In this document: positions 3,985 to 10,903 of the stretch, one piece after another
Layout of the letters: each line of letters opens with the position of its first letter
Position numbering within the stretch: position 1 is the stretch's first letter
Assembly: GCA_905479915.1 (NCBI GenBank)
Contig: CAJQOH010000028.1
Span: forward strand, 62,001-126,000
Reading direction: 5' to 3'
DNA length: 64,000 nt
DNA from: an uncultured Flavobacteriales bacterium
GTDB lineage: Bacteria > Bacteroidota > Bacteroidia > Flavobacteriales_E > Vicingaceae
The notes under the pieces: generated by a model
Seen by the model: only the letters and a program-made list of their open reading frames with translations
Told to the model about the DNA's origin: nothing
Database searches by the model: none
Program-made: the position numbers and the translations under genes

Positions 3985-6861
3985 TTAAAACAAACTCATT
4001 TGTTCATCCCCATCATCATCTGCATCCTTGATTGGAGATTTCTTTTTAAACTTTGGTTTTGGTTCTTCTTCAGAAGGTAACTCAACCTCAGATTTTGGTT
4101 CTTCTTTTATCTCCTCCTTTATTTCAGGAACTTCCTCCGTTTTTTCCTCTTCCGATGGCGGAACTTTTTTCTTAAATTTCTTTTTAGCTTCGGAAACTAC
4201 TTCAACTACTGCTTCTTCTACCTTTTCTGAAGCCTCCTCACTTTCAACTTCTTCAACAACACCTTCCATTTCAACATCTATAGCATCACTACCTTCTGAA
4301 TCTGCAACTGTTTCAATAAGCTCTTCTTCTGGCTCTTCATAAGGAAGCGGCTCTAACAAGTCAATACTTTTAACTTTATGTGTTGTCAATCGGTTCCCAA
4401 TAGCTTTCATACCTTTTACAGCAATGAACTCTTCTAAAGCATTGGTTTCATTATCTCTCTGCTTTCCTTTAACCTTAGCAAAGGTTGTCTCTATCTGAGG
4501 TAACCAATCTGTTGAAACAACTTCTAAATGAGAGTTTTCATGATCACTAATAAATGAAACTTTTTTATCTGTAGATTCTGCTAAGAACCTTTTCACATAA
4601 TACTCTTTTTTATCTCCATCAAAATAAACTGCAGAAATTGGTTTTTCAGGATTCCATTTTTCAATAACAATCATATCCTCATCGAACTTGGTAAACAAAT
4701 CAAATCCTAACAATTGATATTCTCCACTTTGCATAATGGTTAATATTCTATCATTGGCTTTAAAATCGCCCAAGAACTCACCTCTTTCTTCTGAATTTAA
4801 ACGCTGTACGGCATCATCAAACCAGATTTTTCTTGCTGCCAATGTTGATACTCCAGCTTCTTTTAATTCTATTTTTGAAATTGGAAATTTAGTCACTCTA
4901 TTTCCTCCAGCTCCTCTTCCTTTGATAGCTAATTCAGAAAAGTCTAACTCAAATTTAAGCTTACGCACTTTAGCTACAGGTTTCAACTTAATGGATAATG
5001 TTTCCGCTTCTCCATTAGGGTTAGCTGTAAACCACAACACTTTAGAACCTTCCGTTCCTTTTGTAATAGGGTACTCTTTATCTCTAGTAATTGAAGTAAC
5101 AGAAAAACGCTTCATCATAGCCGGTCCAGATTTTCCATCCTGATAAATCGTATTATAAGTTGTACGTTTATCTCCTTTCTTCCAGACTCCTACATGGATT
5201 ATTCCTTTACCGAAAAATGCTTTTGATGAGATTTTAGAGACCATCATCACACCGTCTTTTCTAAATACAATTACACTATCAATATCAGAACAATCTGCTA
5301 TAAACTCTGAGTCTGAACGCTTCAATCCAGAACCAACAAATCCTTCTTCAAAGTTGGCGTAAAGCTTTACATTACTAACAGCAACTTTTGAAGCATCAAT
5401 ACTTTCAAAAGATCTAATTTCTGTTTTACGCTCTCGACCTTCTCCGTATTTCTTTTTTAATTCTTTAAAATAGTCAACCGCAAAATCAACCAAATTCTCT
5501 AGGTTAAATTTCACTTTTGCAATCTCATCTTCTAACGATGATAATTTCTCATCAGCCTTTTCAGAATCATGTTTAGTGATTCTTCTCATTTTAATTTCTA
5601 AAAGACGTTTAACATCTTCATCAGTTACTGGTCTTAACAAATGTTTTGTCAATGGTTTTAGCAGCTCTTGAGTCAGCTCGATAGCTTCATCATAACCTAA
5701 ACCATGTAACTTCACATAAATCTTATTCTCAATAAATATCTTTTCTAAAGATGAAAAATGCCATTGCTCTTCTAACTCTCGCTGTTTAATTTCTAACTCT
5801 AGCTTTAATAAAGCCTTTGTTCTTTCTGTAGAAATTCTAAGCATTTCTGCTACACCAATAAACTTAGGTGTATCATCTTCAATAATTCCTGCGTTTGGCG
5901 AAATTGAAATTTCACAATCTGTAAATGCATACAATGCATCAATCATCTTATCTGGAGAAACCCCAGCTGGCAAATGAATTAATATCTCTACAAATTCAGC
6001 AGTGTTATCCTCTACTTTTCTAACCTTAATTTTCCCTTTAGCATTTGCTTTAAGAATAGAATCAATCAACTTATCAGTAGTTGATCCAAAAGGTATTTCG
6101 GTTATTTTAAGTGTTTTTTTATCTTCTTGAGCAATACGAGCTCTAACTTTTATCTTCCCCCCTCTTAATCCATCATTGTAAGCAGACATATCAGCCATGC
6201 CTCCAGTTAAGAAATCTGGATAGACCGTAACTTTTTTCGTTCCTCTTAAGATTTTAATAGATCCATCTATTAATTCATTAAAGTTATGGGGTAGTATTTT
6301 ACAAGCCAATCCTACAGCAATACCTTCAACCCCTTGAGTAAGTAATAATGGAAACTTTACAGGAAGTGTTTCTGGCTCTTTATTTCTACCATCGTAAGAA
6401 GTTAACCATTCTGTTGTTTTAGGGTTAAATACAACCTCTAAAGCAAACTTGGTTAATCGAGCTTCAATATACCTTGGTGCGGCAGCTCTATCTCCAGTAA
6501 AAATATTCCCCCAGTTTCCTTGGCAATCAACCAACAAGTCTTTTTGACCTACCTGCACTAAAGCATCACCTATAGAAGCATCACCATGGGGATGGTACTT
6601 CATTGTATTACCAATAATATTAGCAACCTTATTGTAACGTCCATCATCCATTTCCTTCATAGAATGTAATATTCTACGCTGTACTGGTTTTAGACCATCA
6701 TTTAAATGAGGAACAGCTCTCTCTAAGATTACGTAAGAAGCATAATCCAAGAACCATTCTTGATACATTCCAGAAATCTGAATAACATTTTCTAAGTTAT
6801 TCTCTTCGTTTCCTTCATTTTCGAATTCTTCGTCTCTTTCTATATTTTCGTCTTCGCTCAT
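3985..6861 (-). CDS. parC: DNA topoisomerase IV subunit A
   Basis: 958-residue type IIA topoisomerase breakage-reunion subunit. The catalytic Tyr is in AAAPRYIEARLTKFALE, preceded by HPHGDASIGDALV and the QGVEGIAVGLACKILPHNF region. A C-terminal beta-pinwheel-like domain spans roughly residues 500-830. The last about 120 residues are low complexity, rich in Glu with two basic FKKK blocks, and the protein ends in DEQMSLF, a possible sliding-clamp-binding peptide. It lies 55 nt downstream of parE on the same strand, as expected for a ParE-ParC pair. Assignment as Topo IV rather than gyrase rests on this pairing and general similarity. Confidence 0.92.
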   Translation of the reverse strand: MSEDENIERDEEFENEGNEENNLENVIQISGMYQEWFLDYASYVILERAVPHLNDGLKPVQRRILHSMKEMDDGRYNKVANIIGNTMKYHPHGDASIGDALVQVGQKDLLVDCQGNWGNIFTGDRAAAPRYIEARLTKFALEVVFNPKTTEWLTSYDGRNKEPETLPVKFPLLLTQGVEGIAVGLACKILPHNFNELIDGSIKILRGTKKVTVYPDFLTGGMADMSAYNDGLRGGKIKVRARIAQEDKKTLKITEIPFGSTTDKLIDSILKANAKGKIKVRKVEDNTAEFVEILIHLPAGVSPDKMIDALYAFTDCEISISPNAGIIEDDTPKFIGVAEMLRISTERTKALLKLELEIKQRELEEQWHFSSLEKIFIENKIYVKLHGLGYDEAIELTQELLKPLTKHLLRPVTDEDVKRLLEIKMRRITKHDSEKADEKLSSLEDEIAKVKFNLENLVDFAVDYFKELKKKYGEGRERKTEIRSFESIDASKVAVSNVKLYANFEEGFVGSGLKRSDSEFIADCSDIDSVIVFRKDGVMMVSKISSKAFFGKGIIHVGVWKKGDKRTTYNTIYQDGKSGPAMMKRFSVTSITRDKEYPITKGTEGSKVLWFTANPNGEAETLSIKLKPVAKVRKLKFELDFSELAIKGRGAGGNRVTKFPISKIELKEAGVSTLAARKIWFDDAVQRLNSEERGEFLGDFKANDRILTIMQSGEYQLLGFDLFTKFDEDMIVIEKWNPEKPISAVYFDGDKKEYYVKRFLAESTDKKVSFISDHENSHLEVVSTDWLPQIETTFAKVKGKQRDNETNALEEFIAVKGMKAIGNRLTTHKVKSIDLLEPLPYEEPEEELIETVADSEGSDAIDVEMEGVVEEVESEEASEKVEEAVVEVVSEAKKKFKKKVPPSEEEKTEEVPEIKEEIKEEPKSEVELPSEEEPKPKFKKKSPIKDADDDGDEQMSLF

Positions 6862-6916
6862 TTATAAATAATTAAAAAGTTGAACGTTGTAAAGTTTCAC
6901 AACCTCCCCTAACTCT

Positions 6917-8779
6917 TTATGCTTCTATTATTTCTTCTTCTATGTCTTTTTCTACTTTAAGGTTTTCTATGATAAACTTCTGCCTATCAGGTGTGTTTTT
7001 ACCCATGTAAAAATCCAACAGTTTTTGAATTGGGGTTTCTGGTCCAATAACTACAGGTTCTAATCGAATGTTCTCACCAATAAAGTGCTTAAATTCACTT
7101 GGTGAAATCTCCCCAAGTCCCTTAAATCGTGTTATTTCAGGTTTTCCCTTCAACTCTTCAATTGCATCTTTTCTTTCTTGATCAGAATAACAATAAATTG
7201 TTTTCGATTTATCTCTAACCCTAAATAAAGGTGTTTCTAAAACCTGTAAGTGTCCGTTTTTAATTACATCAGGAAAGAATTGCAAGAAGAATGTGATTAA
7301 CAATAATCGAATGTGCATCCCATCCACATCGGCATCAGTTGCAATAATGATGTTGTTGTACCTTAAATCATCTATCCCTTCCTCAATATTTAGTGCAGCT
7401 TGCAATAAATTAAATTCTTCGTTTTCGTAAACAATCTTTTTTGTTAAACCGTAACAGTTCAAAGGTTTCCCTTTTAAACTAAATACTGCCTGAGTATTTA
7501 CATCTCTAGATTTTGTTATAGAACCCGATGCAGAATCTCCCTCGGTAATAAAAAGCATTGTTTCAGGCTTTCTTTCATTTTCTTTAGCATCGTTAAAATG
7601 AATTCTACAATCTCTTAATTTCTTATTGTGTAATGCTGCATCTTTAGCTCTCTTTTTAGCAATTTTTTTAATCCCTGCCATATCCTTACGCTCGCGTTCG
7701 GATTGCATGATTTTACGCTGTAGAGCTTCTGCGGCAGCAGCGTTTTTGTGCAAGTAATTGTCTAATTCTTTCTTTAAAAAATCCGTAACAAAAGCCCTCA
7801 TTGATGGTCCATCAGGTGCAACTTCTGTAGACCCTAACTTTGTTTTTGTTTGAGATTCAAAAACAGGCTCCATCACCCTTACACTAACTGCAGCAACAAC
7901 AGAAGATCGAATATCTGCAGCATCATAATCTTTATTGTAAAACTCTCTAATTGTTTTAACAATAGCGGTTCTAAATTCTGTTTGATGCGTTCCTCCTTGC
8001 GGAGTATACTGACCATTTACAAAGGAATAATATTCCTCTCCATAGGCTTGCGTATGAGTAATTGCAACCTCGATATCATCGCCTTTTAAATGGATAATTG
8101 GATAAAGTGGATCATTGGAAAGGTTTTGAGTTAACAAGTCTTTTAACCCCTCTTCCGAATGAATTTTCTCTCCATTAAAATTTAATGTTAATCCAGTATT
8201 TAAGAAAGCATAATTCCACAACAACTTCTCAACATGCTGTGTTCTATATTTAAACTGTTTAAAAACTTCTTCATCGGGAACAAAAGTCATTTTAGTTCCT
8301 TTTCTTAAAGTTGTTTTTTCAACTTTTGAATCTAATGTCAAATCCCCTCTTTCGAATTCAGCTTTTTTAAGCTCACCATCTCTAACCGATTGAACTCTAA
8401 AGAAACTAGATAAAGCATTTACTGCTTTTGTACCTACACCATTCAACCCTACAGATTTTTGAAAAGCTTTACTATCATACTTTCCACCTGTATTCATTTT
8501 AGACACACAGTCAATCACTTTCCCTAAAGGAATACCTCTTCCGTAATCTCTAACCTTTACAACCTTATCTCTGATACTAATATCAACGGTTTTTCCGTGT
8601 CCCATTGCATACTCATCAATAGAATTATCAATTACTTCTTTTAGTAAAATATAAATTCCATCATCATAAGCTGCACCATCACCAAGCTTACCAATATACA
8701 TTCCAGGACGCATACGGATATGCTCTTTCCAATCTAACGATCGTATATTATCTTCATTATAAATTGGTTCTTCAGCCAT
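6917..8779 (-). CDS. parE: DNA topoisomerase IV subunit B
   Basis: 620 residues, a usual length for bacterial ParE without the gyrase insert. Visible are the GHKL ATPase motifs ([26 protein letters not shown] with the catalytic Glu, [13 protein letters not shown]), the QTKTKLGS loop with the ATP-contacting Lys, and the TOPRIM domain with [12 protein letters not shown] and the metal-binding [13 protein letters not shown]. The C-terminal [13 protein letters not shown] is the conserved QGLGE-like segment. It supplies ATP-driven strand passage together with ParC directly downstream. The start is ATG; 186 bp separate it from the upstream regulator gene. Confidence 0.94.
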
Positions 8780-8887
8780 ATTCTAATTCTCTGAATTTGA
8801 AATATAAAAATAAATATAAATGGACTTCTCCTTTAGGTTCTTAACAAAGGTTTTCAAGGTATTTATCAACAACTATTTGAGCTTAAA

Positions 8888-8966
8888 AGTTGAAAGTTTT
8901 TAAAGTTAAAAGCGATGTAGTTCAAAGAAAAAACTTCTCAACTTTATACTTTAAATACTTTCAACT
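8888..8966. repeat. 20-bp imperfect inverted repeat (arms 8888-8907 and 8947-8966)
   Basis: The left arm AGTTGAAAGTTTTTAAAGTT and the right arm TACTTTAAATACTTTCAACT match as an inverted repeat in 18 of 20 positions, with a further short AAAG/CTTT match inside. The right arm reaches the stop codon of the XRE/S24 gene. It could fold in RNA downstream of that gene, but lacks a T-run on either strand, so I do not call it a terminator. Confidence 0.55.
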
Positions 8967-9757
8967 CAATTAATTTCCAACTTAGAAATTCGCTGCTTAA
9001 GGTCTTTTAATTCAATTCCCACACTTCTCATTAAACTTAAAATATTTGTAGGGTTCAACTCATCTTCTTCATATTGTCCAATACATAAGTTCAGTTTAAA
9101 CTGCCATATCTCCATCACCTCAGAGGTATGAATCGTATAAGGTTGGTAAGCTTTATTATCTGACGACAAGGTTAAATACCCACTATCTAATTGCCCTGTA
9201 AAAACTCTCTTATAGACCAACCCATCATCTTTAGTCAAAATGATGTAACAGAAATTATTTTTTACAGCATTTGGGTTTTCCATATATTCAGCAACTACAA
9301 CATCTCCATCTTTTACCCATGGATGCATAGAATCTCCCTTTATAGGAAATGCTCGATGTTTACCTGTTGGCAAAAAGTCTAAACTCATAATAGGTAAGTC
9401 TGCGATAAACTCTGTATCAGAATATCCTTGCAAATAACCAGCAGAAGCTTCTTTGGTTACTACCTCTATAACATTCTCATTGTACTCATCTACTCGCATA
9501 GGAAACAAAACTCTTTGATTACCTATATCAATAAATGTATCATCTTCCGCCAAGGTTAAATCATTTTTCACCAAAGCATCAATCGGTATTTTAAAATAAT
9601 CCGACAACATAATCAATGTATCGATTGGTGGCTCTGAACGCCCCTCCTCATAAGAACCCACTCTAGATTTAGAAATATCTACCTCTACAGAAAACTGTTC
9701 TTGTGTTAACGATTTTAAACTTCTTAAATGCTTGATGTTTTTTGCTATTTTTCCCAT
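8966..9757 (-). CDS. XRE-family repressor with S24/LexA-type autocleavage domain
   Basis: 263 residues. Residues 5-60 are a helix-turn-helix of the XRE/Cro class (SLTQEQFSVEVDISKSRVGSYEEG). The C-terminal half is a LexA/UmuD-like S24 peptidase fold: possible cleavage bond A106-G107 in EASAGYLQ, nucleophile S143 in PIKGDSMHPWVKDGD, and general base K183 in VYKRVF. The spacing is close to that of LexA. The last 30 residues are predicted helical/coiled coil. It diverges from a radical SAM repair-like gene across 102 bp holding a perfect inverted repeat, so it probably represses both genes and may respond to DNA damage. Function is inferred; motifs are seen. Confidence 0.85.
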   Translation of the reverse strand: MGKIAKNIKHLRSLKSLTQEQFSVEVDISKSRVGSYEEGRSEPPIDTLIMLSDYFKIPIDALVKNDLTLAEDDTFIDIGNQRVLFPMRVDEYNENVIEVVTKEASAGYLQGYSDTEFIADLPIMSLDFLPTGKHRAFPIKGDSMHPWVKDGDVVVAEYMENPNAVKNNFCYIILTKDDGLVYKRVFTGQLDSGYLTLSSDNKAYQPYTIHTSEVMEIWQFKLNLCIGQYEEDELNPTNILSLMRSVGIELKDLKQRISKLEIN

Positions 9758-9803
9758 AACTACAAATATAAGTCAAATAATCTACTTTTTGTAGTTATTT
9801 TTG
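9756..9803. promoter_or_regulatory. Divergent promoter with 11-bp perfect inverted-repeat operator
   Basis: Arms ATAACTACAAA (9756-9766) and TTTGTAGTTAT (9788-9798) are exact reverse complements. A minus-strand -7 box TATATTTG (9763-9770) overlaps the left arm and ends 5 nt from the repressor ATG, implying an almost leaderless mRNA. A plus-strand box TATTTTTG (9796-9803) overlaps the right arm. A dimeric regulator bound here would block both promoters; the XRE/S24 product is the obvious candidate. Confidence 0.65.
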
Positions 9804-9859
9804 AAAAAGATTAAAATAGGCACCAAAATGTCCATTCGATACAATTAAAAAAAACAACT

Positions 9860-10903
9860 ATGGAACTAAAAGGAAGAGGAAGTCAAATTCAAGTAAAAAA
9901 CAGATTCTTTAAAAACGAATACAAAGTAGAACATATAGAAGGTGTAGATATCCCAGACATTCAAAACATCAAAACTCAGTTCATCCCAGAACATCCTAAA
10001 AAAATAGTTAATACAATAAAAGGTTCTACTGTTCCATTTATGTACTCCATGAATCCTTACCAAGGTTGCGAACATGGATGTGTATATTGCTATGCTCGTG
10101 AAAGTCATCAATATTGGGGATATGGAGCTGGACTAGATTTTGAAAGAAAAATAATATATAAACCTGAAGCTCCAGAATTATTAGAGAAACAATTCAATGC
10201 TAAAAACTGGAAGGTAAGCCCCATTATGTTATCTGGCAATACGGATTGCTACCAACCTATTGAACGTAAATTAAAAATTACAAGAAGACTATTAGAGGTT
10301 TGCTTAAAATACAAACACCCTGTTAGTATCCTTACCAAAAACGCAGTTATTCAAAGAGATATAGATATACTAACTCAACTTGCTGAACAAAACTTAGTGC
10401 GTGTAGGTTTAAGCATTACATCGCTAGACAATAAACTAAGAAATGCGTTAGAACCAAGAACTGCTTCCATAAAAAAGAAACTAGAAACGTTAGAACTCTT
10501 ATCAAAAAACAACATTCCAACAATGGTTATGGCAGCCCCAATTATCCCTGGTCTAAACAGCCACGAAATACCGAACATCGTAAAAACAGTTGCCGAACTT
10601 GGTGCCCTAAGTGTAGGTTACACTACAGTTCGTTTAAATGGTGAAATAGCTGAAATTTTTGAGCATTGGATCAAGGAAGCCTATCCTAATAAAGCCAACA
10701 AAGTACTCAATCAAATACGAGAAATAAATAATGGCAATTTATACAGCAAAGGAAAAAACAGAATGAAAACACATGGCGAAACAGCCGTAATGATTAAAAA
10801 CATGTTTAAAGTAGCTCGCAACAAACACCTAAAAGGGAGAGAAATTCCTAAATACAATTTAAACGCTTTTTTAAGGCCCAGTAGTCAATTGAGATTGTTT
10901 TAG
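9860..10903 (+). CDS. PA0069-family radical SAM protein (SplB-like)
   Basis: 347 residues. The radical SAM cluster motif is GCEHGCVYCYARESH (Cys spaced CxxxCxxC) near residues 70-84, followed by SGNTDCYQPIERKLKITRRLLE and SVGYTTVRLNGEI, both typical of the PA0069 group related to spore photoproduct lyase (SplB). The family is often found with DNA-damage genes but its substrate is not established. Its C-terminus is RPSSQLRLF, a canonical-looking sliding-clamp-binding peptide. It diverges from a LexA-like repressor, which supports a damage-related role. Its stop codon overlaps the 3' end of convergent aroK by 4 nt. Confidence 0.88.
   Translation: MELKGRGSQIQVKNRFFKNEYKVEHIEGVDIPDIQNIKTQFIPEHPKKIVNTIKGSTVPFMYSMNPYQGCEHGCVYCYARESHQYWGYGAGLDFERKIIYKPEAPELLEKQFNAKNWKVSPIMLSGNTDCYQPIERKLKITRRLLEVCLKYKHPVSILTKNAVIQRDIDILTQLAEQNLVRVGLSITSLDNKLRNALEPRTASIKKKLETLELLSKNNIPTMVMAAPIIPGLNSHEIPNIVKTVAELGALSVGYTTVRLNGEIAEIFEHWIKEAYPNKANKVLNQIREINNGNLYSKGKNRMKTHGETAVMIKNMFKVARNKHLKGREIPKYNLNAFLRPSSQLRLF

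Follow-up and report, generated by a model that had tools for sequence, protein, structure and literature searches.

The closest described relatives of the system analyzed here are the "non-canonical LexA" proteins of Bacteroidetes. In the account given by Sanchez-Osuna et al. (2021; PMC8565304), these autoregulated repressors combine an HTH_3 domain with an S24 domain, carry the Ala-Gly, Ser, and Lys residues, and have 13-bp 4-5-4 dyads of the form CTAA-N5-TTAG, or GGA-N5-TCC (3-5-3 core), as operators, with diverged palindromes, such as TTAC-N5-GTAA, in Weeksellaceae. recA, DinB/DnaE, and a COG1533 radical SAM gene are named there as regulon members. Relatives of the present repressor were studied in that work by EMSA and mutagenesis, with dyad binding and mitomycin C induction, and recA of one species was a predicted target yet was not induced. 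Promoters with at least two copies of the motif are mentioned, and the main text gives no fixed distance between the copies. Further traits of the family are its restriction to Bacteroidetes and an additional C-terminal helix.

The window analyzed here, a 64,000-nucleotide stretch of DNA from an uncultured Flavobacteriales bacterium, contains a gene for such a repressor. Judged from its sequence, this locus appears to be where a non-canonical LexA-type repressor, of the sort described in Bacteroidetes, controls a minimal SOS response, a reading to which we assign a probability of roughly 0.8. A LexA-like, damage-inducible switch had been proposed in the first-pass annotation and is the best reading of the locus, as the sequence features, the operator format, and recA match those of the published repressors, and it is from this match that we infer induction by damage.

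The repressor and its divergent partner

The two genes of the locus are divergent, and the intergenic region between them carries an inverted repeat.

8966 to 9757, minus strand: XRE (HTH_3)/peptidase S24 repressor, 263 aa (ORF list, Pfam, residue alignment, and fold search)
Within the repressor: predicted cleavage bond A106-G107 and catalytic residues S143 and K183
9860 to 10903, plus strand: PA0069-family radical SAM protein (NF033668), 347 aa (ORF, NCBIfam, and cluster motif)

Both reading frames were re-found by an ORF check at the coordinates first given for them. In Pfam, the repressor matches HTH_3 at its N terminus (PF01381; 1.6e-10, 41.3 bits, cut-off 23) and Peptidase_S24 at its C terminus (PF00717; 40.5 bits), and the winged LexA DNA-binding domain is absent, Pfam giving HTH_3/HTH_19 only. 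The Ala-Gly bond at 106-107, Ser143, and Lys183, which had been claimed from the sequence, were all found, and the four residues A106, G107, S143, and K183 are invariant across 39 aligned relatives. A structure model of moderate confidence (pLDDT 66) has the lambda repressor (CI) and LexA as its top matches in a fold search, with helix-turn-helix matches of the P22 c2 type at the N terminus; C-terminal helices are predicted at 236-245 and 254-262, the last with low confidence. Because of the invariant residues, the structure matches, and the published data on relatives (PMC8565304), the best explanation would be RecA-stimulated self-cleavage that frees the repressor gene, the radical SAM gene, and recA from repression. 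Among PF00717 matches in the genome assembly (3.57 Mb in 74 contigs), the repressor is the sole S24 regulator found; a second match was rejected as another such regulator and resembles a signal peptidase. Titled relatives of the repressor are all from Bacteroidetes/Flavobacteriales by name, in a search of 84,980 species genomes that reaches close relatives only.

The identification of the partner as a PA0069-type radical SAM protein is borne out by a full-length NF033668 match above the curated NCBIfam cut-off (449.3 bits versus 360), and the cluster motif CxxxCxxC is present as CEHGCVYC. We take the protein to belong to COG1533. Its structure model (pLDDT 46.7) is too poor for a fold search, no SPL is among its NCBIfam and PDB sequence matches, and in the literature on PA0069 and Rv2578c, no paper that tests the substrate was found. 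Probably it is an SplB-like enzyme that repairs DNA (or nucleotides). Most of the clade retains the divergent pair. In G017, the radical SAM gene has decayed in place through an internal deletion; in G016, a 26-residue remnant is left (L022:2593-2929; L149); in G020, the gene lies elsewhere in the assembly; and in G027, it was not found.

The neighborhood downstream of the repressor is chromosomal, with parE/parC-like genes. These topoisomerase IV-like genes (3985-8779, minus strand; parE-like at 6917-8779 and parC-like at 3985-6861) come after the repressor in the same orientation, and most genus members preserve this arrangement. Since the topoisomerase IV operon is listed among the predicted SOS targets in PMC8565304, read-through from the repressor promoter into these genes is possible. 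A long AU-rich hairpin (8885-8968, minus strand; -26.9 kcal/mol, z -3.8), located between the stop of the repressor gene and parE, is perhaps a terminator or attenuator between the repressor and the topoisomerase IV-like genes.

Paired dyads and -7 boxes in the intergenic region

The features between the two starts are as follows.

9756 to 9798, no strand assigned: inverted repeat ATAACTACAAA-N21-TTTGTAGTTAT, 11-bp arms and 21-nt interior, corresponding to the outer halves of two dyads plus flanks
9760 to 9794, minus strand: putative composite operator, two 13-bp dyads separated by 9 nt (22 bp center to center)
9760 to 9772, minus strand: operator dyad adjoining the repressor, CTTA-TATTT-GTAG (CTTATATTTGTAG), kept in the genus and at recA
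9782 to 9794, plus strand: operator dyad adjoining the radical SAM gene, CTAC-TTTTT-GTAG (CTACTTTTTGTAG), a perfect 4-5-4 palindrome
9763 to 9770, minus strand: repressor -7 box TATATTTG, inside the dyad and 5 nt before the ATG
9796 to 9803, plus strand: candidate radical SAM -7 box TATTTTTG, beginning 1 nt beyond the dyad end (9794)

The perfect 11-bp inverted repeat described at first pass is exact and has a single occurrence in the window (none in 100 shuffled sequences, with up to 3 mismatches). Two 13-bp dyads at a distance of 22 bp describe the presumptive functional unit better than a single long palindrome around an empty 21-nt interior does, and relatives keep both dyads plus the 9 nt between them. 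In a set of 35 representative repressor promoters, clustered at 85% protein identity, 18 have 22-bp dyad pairs, versus 0.21 expected and a maximum of 2 in 200 shuffles; a separate distant clade (~40% identity) has CTAA/TTAG-like sites at 17 and 41 bp. With dyads 22 bp apart, the two dimers would lie on the same side of the helix, so that cooperative binding to the pair, as in lambda CI, is probable.

The repressor promoter contains no exact CTAA-N5-TTAG or GGA-N5-TCC motif, its half-site being CTAC/GTAG, and by this exact-motif comparison the repressor fits neither of the two subgroups. A relative that is 46% identical (L082) carries CTAAATATTTTAG as well as CTACAAATTGTAG. In the orthologs L031, L076, and L077, other half-sites (TTTA/TAAA and TTTC/GAAA) occur beside altered recognition-helix residues, a pairing that is possibly a specificity code.

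The -7 element of F. johnsoniae is TAHHTTTG, with transcription starting 4 to 5 nt after it (PMC6847099). At the repressor, the spacing TATATTTG-5 nt-ATG is exact in 15/15 genomes; with a start 4 to 5 nt after the box, transcription would begin at the ATG or 1 nt before it, and the repressor mRNA is predicted to be leaderless, with a leader of 0 to 1 nt. The repeat had been described as covering both -7 boxes, which holds for the repressor box, inside the dyad, but not for the candidate radical SAM box, which lies outside and overlaps the right arm by 3 nt. This candidate box occurs with the same spacing in 8 of the 10 compared genomes having the gene there and is missing in G016, G017, and G027, where the gene is gone from its place or broken. 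Because G025 and G026 have the gene without the box, the case for autorepression is stronger than that for control of the radical SAM gene. The proposed control of this gene by the repressor remains likely but secondary: in several genus members, the gene has decayed or is missing from its place next to the repressor, while the repressor and recA sites persist. The recA -7 box in this genome, TAGATTTG, carries a G that almost never occurs at that position in F. johnsoniae promoters and may make for a weak basal recA promoter.

The putative recA operator and the extent of the predicted regulon

A genome-wide check for further ATAACTACAAA-N21-TTTGTAGTTAT sites returned none, the full 43-bp pattern being found at the locus only. 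This search misses recA because the recA promoter has both dyads without the full outer arms, and the self-contained appearance that the 43-bp key had given the locus was overturned by the dyad pattern CTAC-N5-GTAG. The second copy of the composite in the recA promoter is CTACAATTTGTAG-N9-CTTAGATTTGTAG (G000:C15:31079-31116; L017/L162). Exact CTAC-N5-GTAG sites number 32 in the genome versus 46 for the reversed control, i.e., there is no enrichment, and single dyads are therefore little informative; only the composite is. Coding sequence contains 28 of the 32, and the 4 intergenic sites include the divergon and one directly upstream of recA; the remaining intergenic single dyads (L011 and L088) have no SOS gene close by and were set aside.

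Across 14 genus genomes, the composite pattern has 22 sites, 12 at the repressor and 10 at recA, and 0 elsewhere. Because this pattern had drawn on both promoters, a model (R2) was made from repressor promoters only. In the same genomes, every match scoring at least 27.7 bits is one of 12 repressor or 10 recA sites, and the best of the remaining matches reaches 17.2 bits; all 10 recA sites are recovered (27.7 to 49.3 bits), that of the source genome with an E value of 3.5e-7. The composite operator is present at recA in every genus member with an assembled recA and a found repressor. G017, G026, and G028, with a repressor and no recA site, do not have recA in their assemblies, and G019 has the recA site, with no repressor found in its 71% complete assembly. 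In G018, which is without the repressor, recA is without the operator and lies directly after a Bcp-type-looking reading frame, as in more distant family members. The more distant, S24-bearing genus g6 (G008, G009, and G013) has no recA site and carries the operator at the repressor divergon only. Because recA is without the operator in both G018 and g6, the putative recA operator looks like a gain within the clade.

No mutagenic polymerase appears among the predicted targets. The genome has one Y-family (UmuC/DinB-type) polymerase, DinB (L084), without an operator, and a single long DnaE of ~1,435 aa, with no second DnaE found. A weak match at C56:21711, considered as a dinB operator, is at noise level. 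Flavobacteriaceae orthologs of the repressor, 50 to 60% identical, face dinB and/or dnaE, and many keep the 22-bp dyad pair; among ten Flavobacteriaceae genomes, the clean composites are at repressor divergons, and one genome has two such loci. In Aestuariibaculum sediminum, there are two composite loci (L234 and L244), and the L244 locus has a repressor paralog opposite a dnaE-like gene. Since the partner in Flavobacteriaceae is dinB/dnaE, the radical SAM gene replaces the polymerase cassette in the present lineage.

The distribution of the composite bears on the first-pass proposal that the locus is self-contained, an autoregulated S24 repressor targeting only its radical SAM neighbor. The conservation of the divergent pair and the restriction of the operator to the divergon in g6 are what such a switch would lead one to expect, but the composite at recA in all 10 genus genomes where it is visible does not agree with it, and the operators persist where the radical SAM gene is decayed (G017), a remnant (G016), or not found (G027). 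We regard a purely local switch as improbable, and the proposal was not upheld; the predicted circuit comprises recA in addition to the repressor and the radical SAM gene.

It is comparably improbable that the repressor regulates itself and the radical SAM gene in response to a signal other than DNA damage, such as a phage-type or stress signal. XRE/S24 proteins are often phage repressors, but here the only distant target is recA, the cleavage residues are intact, the genes downstream are chromosomal ones, the Flavobacteriaceae orthologs are partnered with polymerases, and the experimental data on relatives in PMC8565304 concern DNA damage. Alternatively, the repeat might act in RNA, as a hairpin or attenuator, or be a palindrome that arose by chance in an AT-rich region, with no operator function. 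We give this hardly any credence, as the repeat lies across or ahead of the point where repressor transcription is predicted to begin, its half-sites are conserved as DNA in fixed 22-bp phasing, it recurs at recA in another transcript context, and it does not occur in shuffled sequence.

Under the favored reading, a minimal SOS response, repressor dimers would bind the two 13-bp dyads, two helical turns (22 bp) apart, probably cooperatively, and would keep two promoters silent, the leaderless one of the repressor and the divergent one of the radical SAM gene, with the near-identical composite holding recA repressed. DNA damage would lead to RecA filaments and these to self-cleavage of the repressor at A106-G107, which would lift repression of the repressor, the radical SAM gene, and recA together, and a rebound of the repressor would reset the system. 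More tentatively, at a little short of even odds, the SOS response may have been cut to two operators, through which the repressor controls only its own gene, recA, and a radical SAM enzyme acting in repair, while no error-prone polymerase is under its control; recA would have joined via a near-copy of the repressor promoter, and a phased tetramer would sit on paired dyads whose half-site drifts between lineages. The apparent contraction of the regulon to recA and the radical SAM gene makes this enzyme a promising candidate for a role in repairing damage.

Relation to known SOS repressors

These observations extend the Bacteroidetes SOS repressors to a further lineage, apparently Vicingaceae, in which recA and a radical SAM enzyme seem to be what remains of the regulon. 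The repressor family, the dyad operator format, and the COG1533 radical SAM regulon member are already published, and the claim to novelty is reduced because PMC8565304 already names the last of these. As far as found, what is new is the CTAC/GTAG lineage, the fixed 22-bp pair enclosing a -7 box, a repressor message predicted to be leaderless, the exchange of the divergent partner, and a regulon that has apparently contracted to two promoters and includes no mutagenic polymerase. The retention of the 22-bp dyad pair while half-sites change offers a testable rule for binding by CI-like repressors and for the evolution of operator specificity.

The present system shares with the non-canonical LexA of Bacteroidetes its domain architecture, the Ala-Gly/Ser/Lys residues, a 4-5-4 dyad in its own promoter, and a core SOS gene, recA, in its predicted regulon. 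It differs in its CTAC/GTAG half-site, in having two dyads in a fixed 22-bp register, the second of which encloses the -7 box, in a divergent partner that is a radical SAM gene and no polymerase, and in having strong sites at two promoters only, with the mutagenic polymerase cassette not found in the genome. Canonical LexA (COG1974) likewise has an S24 domain with a cleavage bond and Ser/Lys, and control of itself and recA is predicted here as well; however, LexA has a winged DNA-binding domain, whereas the present repressor has an HTH_3 of the lambda CI type. HdiR of Lactococcus/Streptococcus is, according to PMC8565304, a comparable case, in which a repressor of phage type has come to control a small SOS-like regulon, but it belongs to another lineage, and its targets are umuC loci or cinA-recA. 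The radical SAM protein resembles the PA0069/Rv2578c family (NF033668 and NF038135) in its full-length NF033668 match above the cut-off and its CxxxCxxC motif and differs from it in the placement of its gene in a LexA-like divergon.
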